Shown here: piece by piece, positions 31,794 through 35,993 of the stretch
Position numbering within the stretch: position 1 is the stretch's first letter
How the letters are laid out: each line of letters starts with the position of its first letter
Source: Planctomycetota bacterium
Lineage (GTDB): Bacteria; Planctomycetota; Phycisphaerae; Sedimentisphaerales; Anaerohalosphaeraceae
Assembly (NCBI GenBank): GCA_016873215.1
Contig: VGXU01000022.1
Span: 1 to 37,836 of the forward strand
Direction: 5' to 3'
Length of the DNA stretch: 37,836 nucleotides
Program-made: the position numbers and the translations under genes
Notes under the pieces: generated by a model
Database searches by the model: none
The model's input: the letters and a program-made list of their open reading frames with translations, nothing else
What the model was told of the DNA's origin: nothing

Positions 31794-31958
31794 TTGTGCA
31801 GAATGCCCGGTTCGCTTCATCCTCAAAATCAACAAATATCAATTTCGGGCGTTAAAATTCTCTTGTGTCCCCAAAACCCTCCAGATAGATTAAACCCTCT
31901 ATTGTGTTTTGAGCCGACGTATAATGTTGTGTCCCTGATTTTACTGGCTCTGGCGAAA

Positions 31959-32810
31959 ATGATCAGAAAAGTTATAATCAATGCAGATGATTTCGGTCTG
32001 TGCGAAGGTGTGAACAAAGGTATTGTCAAGGCCCATACCGAAGGTCTTTTGACCAGCGCCGGAATGATGGCTAATATGCCTTGCGCCGACGAAGCCGCGG
32101 CGATGGCCAGGGCGCTGTCCGGTCTGGGAATCGGCGTGCATTTGAACCTCACGGACGGCAGGCCTTTGTGTCAGGATGGGCGGAATGACTGTCTTTTGGA
32201 TTCAACGGGCAAATTCATATTTCGCCCCGGCCAACTCAGTTGGCGGTCTTTAATCAGCGCCGAGGTCAGAAACGCCATCAGGGCGGAACTGCAGGCCCAG
32301 ATTCAATGGGTTTTCGACCACGGCATCAAGCCAACACATTTTGATTCCCACAAGCACATTCACTGTTTCCCCGTCATCTTTCGTATCGTCTGTGCACTGG
32401 CCAAACAATACGGCGTTTCCGCGATACGCTGGCCGCTGGAACGACAAAGTTTTCAAGGTGGTTTATGGCCTACGCCGGGGAAAAAAGAACTGGCCTACTC
32501 CCGAATAATTCGTATAATGGCCCGAATTAACCGGTATCAGAACGCCGCATATTTTAAAACCAGCGACTTTATAGGAATCGCGCATACCGGACGAATCAGC
32601 GTTGCTTTTCTTGAAGCATTCTCGCGGTATCATTCATCGTCGGCGACTGAGATTATGACACATCCGGGATTTCGAGAAGGCCTTGAGCGGGTACAAACGC
32701 GATTGGTGGAACAACGTGAATACGAACTAAATGCTTTATGCAGCGAACAGTCAAAATCGTCTTTCAGACAGGCAGGAATACAATTGGTGCATTATGGACA
32801 ACTTTCATAA
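31959..32810 (+). CDS. YdjC/ChbG-family carbohydrate deacetylase
   Basis: A 283-residue protein starting IRKVIINADDFGLCEGVN, with the catalytic/metal pair D10-D11. GIGVHLNLTDG supplies H61, and HFDSHKHIH supplies H127, D129 and H131 of the HxDxH set. The late HPGF motif (MTHPGFR) is present. Members remove acetyl groups from N-acetylated sugars; a related form (HpnK) sits in hopanoid clusters. The longer frame from 31794 has a poorly conserved N-terminus and no ribosome site, so the ATG at 31959 was chosen. It overlaps the GT2 gene by 17 bases, implying a shared envelope-glycan or lipid-sugar role. Confidence 0.88.
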   Translation: MIRKVIINADDFGLCEGVNKGIVKAHTEGLLTSAGMMANMPCADEAAAMARALSGLGIGVHLNLTDGRPLCQDGRNDCLLDSTGKFIFRPGQLSWRSLISAEVRNAIRAELQAQIQWVFDHGIKPTHFDSHKHIHCFPVIFRIVCALAKQYGVSAIRWPLERQSFQGGLWPTPGKKELAYSRIIRIMARINRYQNAAYFKTSDFIGIAHTGRISVAFLEAFSRYHSSSATEIMTHPGFREGLERVQTRLVEQREYELNALCSEQSKSSFRQAGIQLVHYGQLS

Positions 32811-33789
32811 AATACCGGATTGTTCGATCGTTGTGCCTCTTTATAACGAATCGGACGTGGTAGAAAAGCTTCATTCGCGTCTGACGGCCGTGATGGGCAA
32901 AATGGGTTTGGATTACGAACTGGTTTTTGTGGATGACGGCAGCAAAGATGACACGCTGAACAAACTTAAGGCACTGGCGGCGGTGGATGAGCGGGTTGTG
33001 GCGGTCGAACTGCGTCGGAATTTCGGTCAGACACCGGCGCTGGCGGCGGGTTTCGATAACGCCGGGGGCGAAATAATCATTTCCATGGACGGCGACCTGC
33101 AGCATCTGCCGGAGGAAGTTCCCGCATTTCTGGACAAAATCAATGAAGGGTACGATGTCGTCAGCGGCTGGCGAAAAAACAGAGTCGATAACTTTATAAT
33201 GCGGCGGATTCCGTCCCATATTGCCAACTGGATCGCTTCCAAAGTCAGCGGCGTTGATATTCATGATTTCGGGACGACGTTCAAGGCCTATCGAAGGGAT
33301 GTCGTCGAAAGTCTGAAGTTATACGGCGAGACACATCGCTTTATTCCCGCACTTGTCTCCGGGCAGGGCGCCAAAATTGTTGAAATTCCAATTACCAATA
33401 TTCCGCGTCCCAAAGGCAAAAGCAACTATGGGATTTCCCGAACGTTCAGGGTGATGTTTGATTTGATCACCCTGCGTTTTATCCTTGCGTATGCGTCCAA
33501 GCCGCTTCATTTCTTCGGCAAAGGGGCGCTATTTTATTGTTTTATTCCTGCATTGGCCATAGGGGCATATATTCTCTATGATAAAATTGTTTACCATGTG
33601 CCGATTTCTGTGGCTCATGTTCCCCTGGCGGGGCTGATGATGCTTCTTTTTGTGGTGGGCTTTGTTTTGATAGCGACCGGTCTGATAGGCGAAATGGTCT
33701 GCCGGGTTTATTATGAAGCCACCAATGCAAAAATTTATTCCGTCCGAAAAATATACCGAAAGGATTCTTTCGCACAGGCAAAGCTATGA
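32794..33789 (+). CDS. ArnC/GtrB-like polyprenyl-phosphate glycosyltransferase (GT2)
   Basis: A 331-residue GT-A enzyme. DCSIVVPLYNE opens the domain; FVDDGSKDDT and SMDGDLQHLPEE carry the nucleotide-sugar aspartates, and HDFGTTFKAYRRD follows. Two C-terminal membrane helices (about 253-275 and 285-310) are typical of ArnC, GtrB and DPM1-like enzymes that load a sugar onto a polyprenyl phosphate. The ATG at 32794 lies inside the end of the deacetylase gene, and the frame opens 21 codons earlier without support. The loaded lipid could feed the GT39 enzyme encoded nearby on the other strand. Confidence 0.92.
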   Translation: MDNFHKIPDCSIVVPLYNESDVVEKLHSRLTAVMGKMGLDYELVFVDDGSKDDTLNKLKALAAVDERVVAVELRRNFGQTPALAAGFDNAGGEIIISMDGDLQHLPEEVPAFLDKINEGYDVVSGWRKNRVDNFIMRRIPSHIANWIASKVSGVDIHDFGTTFKAYRRDVVESLKLYGETHRFIPALVSGQGAKIVEIPITNIPRPKGKSNYGISRTFRVMFDLITLRFILAYASKPLHFFGKGALFYCFIPALAIGAYILYDKIVYHVPISVAHVPLAGLMMLLFVVGFVLIATGLIGEMVCRVYYEATNAKIYSVRKIYRKDSFAQAKL

Positions 33790-34319
33790 AAAAGAAACCA
33801 TTTCAACATATCATCACGGTTGTTTTTATTATTGTTGCCGCCGTTCTTCTGGTCAGGCATTTTCATATCCGGGATTTCCGTATCATTGCGCCGGAAGTCC
33901 TTTATGTGAGCGGACAGCCTCGCGGAATGGATTACACACGGCTATTGTATCGGTATCATCTGGCAACTATTATTAATATCCGCCCGACTTCGGAGCATCA
34001 GGAGATAAACTGGCACAGTGAAGAACTGATATGGAGCAGAGAACACGCGGTTACGTACATAGAAATGCCCATCGAAAAACAGAATTACTTTCCGGACCAG
34101 AAAATTCAGGACCAATTTTTTGAAATTATGGGCGAGCAAAAAAACCTGCCCGTGCTGCTGCACGGCGGCGGCGATGATAAACGCGTGGCCATGCTGGTTG
34201 CCGCGTGGCTGAGGAAGAAACAGAGTTTTTCCGCTGCCGATACTATCACTCAGGTAGAAAAAATCATCGATGACCGCCCATTGACGCCGGAGGAAATCAG
34301 CTTTATCAACGCCCTCTGA
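33786..34319 (+). CDS. membrane-anchored dual-specificity phosphatase-like protein lacking the catalytic Cys
   Basis: A 177-residue protein. An N-terminal membrane anchor (about 9-25) precedes a DSP-like fold: LYVSGQPRG at 39-47, ATIINIRPTSEHQ at 60-72 and, at the expected P-loop, LLHGGGDDKR (124-133). The usual HCx5R has G127 in the cysteine position, while H126 and R133 remain. It overlaps the GT2 stop by 4 bases, so the products are coupled. Related DSP-like genes occur with lipid A or glycan genes. Without Cys it is probably a pseudophosphatase or binding protein, or uses another mechanism. Confidence 0.8.
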   Translation: MKKKPFQHIITVVFIIVAAVLLVRHFHIRDFRIIAPEVLYVSGQPRGMDYTRLLYRYHLATIINIRPTSEHQEINWHSEELIWSREHAVTYIEMPIEKQNYFPDQKIQDQFFEIMGEQKNLPVLLHGGGDDKRVAMLVAAWLRKKQSFSAADTITQVEKIIDDRPLTPEEISFINAL

Positions 34320-34385: not shown

Positions 34386-35993
34386 TTACTTATGGAATAA
34401 CAGGCCGGTCGCGTCTGAACTGTGCTTTCCGGTCGTCGGTTTGTTTGATTCGCTCGAATAAACGACGTGAAGCGGCAAGTCTTTCAGGCTGGAAGTCTGG
34501 TCCGACGAGCACACAATCCAGTTTCCTTTGTCATAGCAGGCCTGCAATTCGGACAATTCATTTATGGCTGGAACAGCTTTGCCGTAGTACTGGACAAATC
34601 GACTGGATACCATGCCGTAGGCCACCAGTGTATCGGAGGGCGGCACCAGTCGGGCAACGGTTTGAGCGAAATTGCGCGAATAGCTGTTTATGTCCATCGC
34701 ATCGGAAAACGTGTAAAAACAGGTCGTAACGTAAATCAAAATTCCCGCGAATATCGTAATGACGGATCCGTGCTGGATTTGCCGCCGCAAAAACAGGGTT
34801 GTCAGTATTGTTGCGGCGAGCATCACGGCACTGAGAAACAGGACGGGCATCAGAAACGGCCGGGCTTTGAAGAAAATAACAATCGGCCCGGCAATAGCTA
34901 TGACAATAAGCATCGCAATATGAGCCTTCAGGATACCAACGGCGAATGTCGGCGTACAGACCCGCCGAATAAAAAGCATATCGTCCAGCAGCAGCCCGAT
35001 TAGAATCGCTAGTGCGGGCATAAATGGTAAAATGTAATGCTGGCGTTTTCCTCCATCAATGGTCAGGAAGATTATTCCCGCGACAAACCAGACCCAGAGA
35101 AACATCATCGCCGGACGTTTTTCCGCCCAGAACTTATTCAACGGTGCCCCCAGCGCAATCGGCAAAAATATAACCCACGGTGCGGCATACTTAAACATAA
35201 TTCCAAAGTAATAGTAAATCGGATAATGGCCCGGCACATACTCGCCGAAAAATCGGTCGATAAACTCATGTTTCCACAGAATCAAATTCCAGTTGAGCTT
35301 GTGTGCGATAAACAGCGGCCAGGGAAGCAGAATAGCCAGAAAAAGCAATATGCTGGTTATGGAAAACAATTTGCCGATGACGCGCCAGTCCCGGGTCAGA
35401 ATGATGTACCCAAGAATCGGCATGGCCACATACGCCACCGGCGCCGGTCCTTTGGCCAGATTAGCTAACGCGAAAGCAATCCAGAAAAACCATCGCTGTC
35501 TTTTACGGTCTTTCGGATTTTCAGATGTGGCGATAGCGTAAAAACTCAGCGTGCATAAAATGGTAAAAAAAGCCATTATCATATCCGGCCTGGCGGAATG
35601 GGCGCAGCGGAAACAGGCCAGCGAGGTCGTCCAGACCGCTGCCGATATTGCGGCTGTCCGCGGCGAAAACCACCGGCGAAGATAATAAAGCAGGAGAAGG
35701 GTCGAGCCGACCGCCGCGACGGCGCTGGGCAATCGGGCGGAAAATTCATCGACAGTCCCGGTTAATGTTCCAACGCCTGCCACAATCCAATAGCTCAAAG
35801 GTGTTTTCTGCAGGCGGGGAAGGTTGTTCAGCGTCGGCCATGCGTACTCATGTTTGGTCAGCATCTCCCGGGCCGTAACCGAGACAAAGCATTCATGGCT
35901 GTCCAGTGATTGAAATCGCAGCATCCAGAAAGAGATTATTCCCGAAAGCAATAACACTGCAAGAACTGCGGTTTTTTTGTTAATCCAATCCAT
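34386..35993 (-). CDS. ArnT-like glycosyltransferase family 39/83 membrane protein
   Basis: A 535-residue protein with about 12 membrane helices. After the first helix comes the acidic loop LDSHECF (D31, E34), in the position of the DE motif of ArnT/PMT enzymes. The periplasmic block NNLPRLQKTPLSYWIVA and the helix PSAVAAVGSTLLLLYYLRRW are typical, as is ANLAKGPAPVAYVAMPI. Such enzymes move a sugar from a polyprenyl phosphate to lipid A or protein in the periplasm. The C-terminal 130 residues are partly soluble. GGAG lies 9 bases before the ATG. The LpxB-N gene lies upstream in the same unit. Confidence 0.9.
   Translation of the reverse strand: MDWINKKTAVLAVLLLSGIISFWMLRFQSLDSHECFVSVTAREMLTKHEYAWPTLNNLPRLQKTPLSYWIVAGVGTLTGTVDEFSARLPSAVAAVGSTLLLLYYLRRWFSPRTAAISAAVWTTSLACFRCAHSARPDMIMAFFTILCTLSFYAIATSENPKDRKRQRWFFWIAFALANLAKGPAPVAYVAMPILGYIILTRDWRVIGKLFSITSILLFLAILLPWPLFIAHKLNWNLILWKHEFIDRFFGEYVPGHYPIYYYFGIMFKYAAPWVIFLPIALGAPLNKFWAEKRPAMMFLWVWFVAGIIFLTIDGGKRQHYILPFMPALAILIGLLLDDMLFIRRVCTPTFAVGILKAHIAMLIVIAIAGPIVIFFKARPFLMPVLFLSAVMLAATILTTLFLRRQIQHGSVITIFAGILIYVTTCFYTFSDAMDINSYSRNFAQTVARLVPPSDTLVAYGMVSSRFVQYYGKAVPAINELSELQACYDKGNWIVCSSDQTSSLKDLPLHVVYSSESNKPTTGKHSSDATGLLFHK

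Follow-up and report, generated by a model that had tools for sequence, protein, structure and literature searches.

A putative membrane-anchored pseudophosphatase family encoded beside an ArnC-like glycosyltransferase in Sedimentisphaerales

Gene content of the locus and predicted protein fold

The window (the whole 37,836-nucleotide stretch of planctomycete DNA analysed here) contains a predicted lipid-sugar operon in which the genes for a YdjC-like deacetylase and an ArnC-like GT2 glycosyltransferase precede a small gene for a phosphatase-like protein (Table 1). An ArnT-like glycosyltransferase is encoded convergently with the operon, next to a membrane protein with a lipid A biosynthesis N-terminal (LAB_N) domain. 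The GT2, YdjC-like, and ArnT-like proteins were compared with the NCBIfam equivalog models ArnC, HpnK, and ArnT, respectively, and all of them scored below the cut-offs. For the GT2 and YdjC-like genes, the first possible start codon is listed; in our judgement, the true starts are likely to be the ATG codons at positions 32794 and 31959, respectively.

Table 1. Predicted features of the locus, with positions counted from the first nucleotide of the window
Feature	Position	Strand	Basis
YdjC-like deacetylase	31794..32810 (first start TTG)	+	Pfam YdjC 203.8 bits; NCBIfam HpnK 177.7 bits, cut-off 232.6
ArnC-like GT2 glycosyltransferase	32731..33789 (first start)	+	Pfam Glycos_transf_2; NCBIfam PRK10714/ArnC 191.9 bits, cut-off 529
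Pseudophosphatase gene, 177 aa	33786..34319	+	ORF; fold prediction; family comparison
GT2 stop overlapping the pseudophosphatase start (ATGA, 4 bases)	33786..33789	+	
N-terminal membrane helix, residues 5-26	33798..33863	+	AlphaFold2 helix; hydropathy
Family motif GQPRGMDY, residues 43-50	33912..33935	+	Family alignment
Degenerate P-loop HGGGDDKR-V, residues 126-134	34161..34187	+	Gly127 for Cys, Arg133 kept, Val134 for Ser/Thr
ArnT-like PMT_2 glycosyltransferase, convergent with the operon	34386..35993	-	Pfam PMT_2 56.5 bits; NCBIfam PRK13279/ArnT 112.4 bits, cut-off 567
LAB_N (lipid A biosynthesis N-terminal domain) membrane protein, 108 aa	36012..36338	-	Pfam LAB_N 88.3 bits

The phosphatase-like ORF starts with an ATG codon at position 33786, and its frame is intact up to the stop codon that ends at 34319. 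The N-terminal helix has a hydropathy of 2.46 over 19 residues. At the position of the HCx5R(S/T) signature of active enzymes, the protein reads VLLHGGGDDKRVAM, with His126 encoded by CAC (34161-34163), Gly127 by GGC (34164-34166), and Arg133 by CGC (34182-34184), and the whole protein contains no cysteine. The initial annotation of this DNA had described an intact, membrane-anchored frame overlapping the GT2 gene by 4 bases, as well as a loop HGGGDDKR in which Gly127 replaces the catalytic Cys while His126 and Arg133 are kept. The codons confirm the frame, the overlap, and the loop, and the AlphaFold2 helix agrees with the membrane anchor.

The AlphaFold2 model of the window protein, built with a 30-row alignment of relatives, had a pLDDT of 89.1 and a pTM of 0.80, and in this model helix 5-26 is followed by strands and helices in a PTP-like order. 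A Foldseek search against the PDB gave 152 matches at an E value of ≤0.001, with the atypical dual-specificity phosphatases AtPFA-DSP1 and Siw14 on top. VIA-align superimposed the model on AtPFA-DSP1 (7mof_B) with a Z score of 16.6 and 2.3 Å over 143 residues (17% identity), on Siw14 with a Z score of 16.5, and on the PRL-1 C104D variant (6wus) with a Z score of 14.1. AtPFA-DSP1 and Siw14, the nearest structural matches, are active Cys enzymes acting on inositol pyrophosphates. The model thus supports a PTP/dual-specificity-phosphatase fold for the window protein, which bears out the phosphatase fold assigned in the initial annotation by the structure prediction proposed there. The window protein scored 24.8, 24.0, and 22.2 bits with the Pfam models PTP-NADK, Y_phosphatase2, and PTP-SAK, all below the gathering threshold of 27; the PTP-NADK model matched 30 of 30 family members at an E value of ≤0.001.

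Variation and selection in the catalytic loop

Homologues of the window protein were found in 39 genomes, including its own (see below), and the loop could be compared in 38 of them, as the contig of one member (L156) is cut before the loop. His126 and Arg133 are present in all 38. Position 127 is occupied by Gly in 21 members (GGC in 14, GGA in 7), by Asp in 15 (GAC in 10, GAT in 5), and by Cys in 2 (both TGC). Residue 134 is Val in 35 members, Glu in 2, and Ala in 1, and it is never Ser or Thr, not even in the two Cys members. In active enzymes, the Ser/Thr that follows the loop Arg helps the turnover of the phospho-enzyme. The comparison set consisted of 27 rows: 19 distant PTPs, 7 other PTPs encoded at the loci, and 1 PTP of the window's genome. 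The loop falls outside one of these rows, and another (L084) carries Asp and Glu at the two positions; the remaining 25 have Cys followed by x5-Arg-Ser/Thr, so that Ser/Thr follows the loop Arg in all 25 Cys-type rows.

The loop varies in some other respects as well. Asp127 is paired with Gly130 in 15 of 15 cases, and Asp130 (7 members) occurs solely alongside Gly127. Residue 128 is Ser in 27 of the 38 members, whereas in the window protein both 127 and 128 are Gly. The loop of one member (L149) is shorter by one residue. The two Cys members read HCSDGRKR-V (L126, also listed as L023) and HCSNGTSR-A (L151, also L041) and might be active. Candidates for the general-acid Asp are residue 97 (Glu in 19 and Asp in 10 of the 39 members) and D104 (32 of 39), in a loop of variable length where the alignment is unsure.

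Isolated loss or an assembly error at position 127 was rejected, since 36 of the 38 covered members lack the Cys. The initial annotation had asked whether the Gly-for-Cys change is conserved in homologues next to ArnC-like GT2 genes and had named Cys in all close homologues as the finding that would speak against it. No such finding was made: loss of Cys proved to be nearly general, these 36 members carrying Gly or Asp; the replacing residue is Asp rather than Gly in 15 of the 38, and Cys is present in 2. The Cys-to-Gly change in the window protein holds, while the Asp alternative, the loss of Ser/Thr134, and the one-to-one tie to the GT2 orthologue and YdjC described below had not been part of that annotation.

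Beyond the loop, residues D49, Y50, R52, Y55, and Y91 are identical in 39 of 39 members, whereas the Cys-type comparison rows do not conserve them. The first three lie in or close to the GQPRGMDY motif, in which R46 is present in 33 of 39 members and is likewise not conserved in the comparison rows. R66, E70, W76, and E80 are also found in all 39 members and are partly common to the comparison rows. No correlation of Gly/Asp127 with other columns proved robust on independent row pairs among the matches listed (385 Fisher tests; smallest P value, 0.0008).

With the loop columns excluded from tree building, position 127 changed at least 10 times among Gly, Asp, and Cys, with these three residues only. 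Ser and Ala were never seen there in the 38 members, though either could arise from a Cys or Gly codon by a single-base change. Among the 84 columns with at least 10 changes, 3 showed three states or fewer, namely, 65 (V/L/I), 77 (Y/H/F), and 127 (G/D/C); the low count at 127 is therefore rare and not unique, with milder exchanges in the other two columns. In a neutral simulation, none of the 886 runs with 9 to 11 changes had three states or fewer, compared with 4 of 27 real columns with 9 to 11 changes. The matrix behind the simulation was derived from BLOSUM62 and took no account of site preferences; the simulation is too strict, so weight was put on the real columns. The long-branch outgroup leaves the root of the family tree unsure. 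Within this tree, the Cys form of L126 falls within a clade of Gly/Asp members (branches 98/87 and 98/88, or 94/84 and 94/87 in a second analysis), which suggests that its Cys (TGC) may have been regained by a change of one base, although it comes from one metagenome assembly alone and may be an error.

Of the 25 closest pairs, 23 were computable and gave dN/dS ratios of 0.11 to 0.34; the window gene, the dS of which is saturated, is in none of these pairs. The proposal that the gene is under selection was thus upheld as purifying selection in close pairs of its relatives. Loss of catalysis in the family is well supported by the loop sequences, and the family combines a PTP fold, absence of the nucleophile, and retention by selection, as does a STYX-like PTP-type pseudophosphatase.

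Distribution of the family and its gene neighborhood

A profile search through 161 genomes of the window's order, its own included, matched 44 genomes, 39 of them strongly (E ≤4e-58) and 5 only via distant PTPs. A search of the 40 nearest relatives had yielded 10 strong matches besides the window and 2 more that were weak PTP paralogues. A pattern scan of the genome contigs gave 26 loci; one of its six patterns (GDDKRVAM) is biased toward window-like loops, and family counts were taken from the order-wide profile search instead. Sampling of the class (397 genomes) gave 25 strong matches, all within the window's order, in addition to distant PTPs in 21 genomes, and among 392 genomes sampled from the phylum, the window's own match was the sole strong one, the other 16 having E values of 5e-23 or weaker. 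Because both samples gave strong matches in this order alone, the family looks confined to the Sedimentisphaerales.

The gene order at the loci is YdjC deacetylase, GT2, pseudophosphatase. GT2 lies directly upstream of the pseudophosphatase gene in 38 of the 39 loci; at the 39th, the contig starts inside the pseudophosphatase gene, and the GT2 orthologue of that genome is near the end of another contig. YdjC was detected upstream in 36 of 39 loci, the remaining 3 contigs being too short, and one locus (L152) has an extra ORF between YdjC and GT2. In L148, YdjC is reduced to a C-terminal piece of 84 residues (positions 1981-2232 of that locus) while GT2 and the pseudophosphatase are intact, indicating that YdjC is not indispensable to the GT2-pseudophosphatase pair. 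Of the 39 loci, 28 have the ArnT-like PMT_2 gene downstream in convergent orientation and 7 have LAB_N, and the acceptor step is thus less tightly linked than GT2.

GT2 matches in the order fall into orthologues with 64% to 69% identity and paralogues with no more than 48%. The GT2 orthologue and the pseudophosphatase occur in precisely the same 39 genomes, and the other 122 of the 161 genomes lack both. One GT2 paralogue (42% identity; L187, on contig C59 of the window's genome, G000) has no YdjC, PTP, ArnT, or LAB_N match nearby. Outside the order, GT2 relatives with 51% to 57% identity occur in 45 other genomes of the class. Twenty of these loci were read, and YdjC was nearby in 13 and a PTP profile match in only 1 (L181), which is of the Cys type and lies about 5 kb upstream. 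In situ replacement of an older Cys enzyme was rejected on the basis of this single PTP match in 20 loci. It seems instead that the pseudophosphatase was added to a pre-existing YdjC-GT2 system in this order.

Other genes point to lipopolysaccharide or lipid A chemistry. LptF/LptG-like permease genes upstream of the operon fall into two clusters, present at 8 and 7 loci and confirmed through one representative apiece, a WaaP/Kdo-kinase-like gene is near the pseudophosphatase gene in 3 loci (L127, L142, and L149; one representative checked with Pfam), and the window's genome has LpxC and LpxK genes above the cut-off. Judged by gene content, the setting resembles the routes of undecaprenyl-phosphate-sugar and lipid A modification.

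Possible roles of the pseudophosphatase

Our preferred reading, held tentatively and at slightly less than an even chance, is that the protein is a conserved membrane-anchored pseudophosphatase acting as a noncatalytic, phosphate-binding accessory of a lipid-sugar pathway. Having neither the nucleophile nor the Ser/Thr and retaining His and Arg, the loop should bind phosphate, or a look-alike carboxylate, and not cleave it; a dead phosphatase retained beside sugar-to-lipid genes would likewise probably bind a phosphate group without cutting. By analogy, either Gly or Asp at 127 would leave a usable anion pocket. In the pathway as envisaged, GT2 would load a sugar on undecaprenyl phosphate, the NaxD-like YdjC protein would deacetylate the lipid-linked sugar, the ArnT-like PMT_2 protein would transfer it to lipid A or another acceptor, and the pseudophosphatase would be an accessory subunit of this pathway. 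The N terminus carries a mean of 4.6 Lys/Arg in about the first 12 residues, against a net charge of +1.8 after the helix (30 members); this Lys-rich end points, weakly as charges flank the helix on both sides, to the periplasm as the most likely location of the phosphatase-like domain. There, the domain could keep a phosphate in place for the ArnT-like enzyme, either that of the lipid A acceptor or that of undecaprenyl phosphate. We infer in this way the ligand (a lipid-linked phosphate, in line with the lipid or polyprenyl phosphate suggested in the initial annotation), the topology, and the partner of the protein.

It is possible, if rather unlikely, that the protein is instead a scaffold or allosteric partner of GT2, YdjC, or both that needs no phosphate ligand and keeps its P-loop for structure or for contact with a protein, as PRL binds an Asp of CNNM. 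The strict tie of the family is to the GT2 orthologue (39 and 39 genomes) and is weaker to ArnT (28 of 39), and the five residues that are invariant in the family and not conserved in Cys-type rows lie off the P-loop, as would suit such a partner. However, the loop His and Arg in 38 of 38 members and the restriction of position 127 to Gly, Asp, and Cys suggest an anion site, and the domain, if periplasmic, would be unable to reach the cytoplasmic GT2 domain.

A guard that shields a phosphate group from the active phosphatases of the cell, in the way that STYX competes for ERK against an active DUSP, was also considered; we regard this as improbable. Potential competitors do exist: a second, Cys-bearing membrane-anchored PTP of about 220 aa (HC[TA]AGxQRT) is encoded in the cluster of 6 of the 39 loci, either between ArnT and LAB_N (L128, L131, and L155) or just downstream (L145, L152, and L153), and the window's genome encodes another membrane-anchored PTP elsewhere (L184, G000 contig C53) with an intact HCQHGADRTG loop. 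The other 33 loci have no second PTP within the stretch seen, some stretches being short, and a second active PTP as a fixed partner was rejected as a rule.

An enzyme working by another mechanism, for example, with Asp127 as the nucleophile or by a Cys-independent reaction, is less probable still. The frequency of Asp at 127 and of Ser at 128 could accommodate it, but Ser/Thr134 is lost in 38 of 38 members. With Gly at both positions in the window form, neither Asp nor Ser is common to the family, and either as a shared new nucleophile was rejected for this form. Finally, the missing catalytic residues and the limitation to one order could befit a decaying, functionless remnant, which is highly improbable given the frame open in 39 species-level genomes, the dN/dS of 0.11 to 0.34 in close pairs, the new invariant residues, and the perfect co-occurrence with a single GT2 orthologue.

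The preferred reading, a noncatalytic phosphate-binding accessory, can be set beside several known systems. Most known pseudophosphatases of the PTP type come from eukaryotic signalling. Our literature search found no bacterial PTP-type pseudophosphatase, which is weak evidence of absence; to our knowledge, a bacterial membrane-anchored pseudophosphatase family that alternates between Gly and Asp and is tied to one glycosyltransferase is new. Human and mouse STYX, as described in passages of two reports (PMC10211241, PMC8622459), share with it the PTP/DUSP fold, the Gly that replaces the catalytic Cys, and the retained loop Arg. STYX differs in being a eukaryotic, soluble, single ERK-binding protein, whereas the present family is bacterial and membrane anchored, has Gly or Asp, and belongs to a lipid-sugar operon. 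In the Caenorhabditis elegans proteins EGG-4 and EGG-5, the catalytic Cys is replaced by Asp, according to a passage of one of these reports (PMC8622459), as in 15 of the 38 members here; these proteins, however, regulate a kinase. For PRL, another report (PMC12192612) describes a C-to-D form that is inactive yet binds its pseudo-substrate, and a C-to-S change that weakens the binding more than 100-fold. PRL-1 C104D, also matched in fold, differs in being an engineered mutant of an active, prenylated enzyme.

The gene set of GT2, YdjC-type deacetylase, and ArnT-like protein is shared with the lipid A routes of Francisella (FlmF2/NaxD) and Escherichia coli (Arn), while the window proteins score under the cut-offs of the models named for them. 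NaxD is the YdjC-like deacetylase of the Francisella route, and we know of no phosphatase-like partner in either route. A broader and doubtful proposal is that bacteria have PTP-fold carriers of phosphate lipids, in which a dead phosphatase would grip the phosphate on lipid A or on undecaprenyl phosphate at the surface of the membrane and present it to a sugar transferase; residue 127 would then have flipped repeatedly among Gly, Asp, and rarely Cys because Gly and Asp each leave an anion pocket that does not cleave, with activity turned off, and perhaps once on, by single-base steps.

The family represents a dead phosphatase linked one to one with a glycosyltransferase of envelope lipid chemistry, and it raises the question of which additional subunits the enzymes of lipid A or undecaprenyl-phosphate-sugar chemistry may require. 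Its natural Gly, Asp, and Cys forms are a ready series for studying how nucleophile loss is tuned for binding. Of the comparison rows, L084 is a distant planctomycete PTP encoded by a minus-strand ORF of 235 aa, with neither YdjC nor GT2 within the 3.5 kb seen; its loop, HDNQGVVRE, apparently reflects a separate Cys-to-Asp change.
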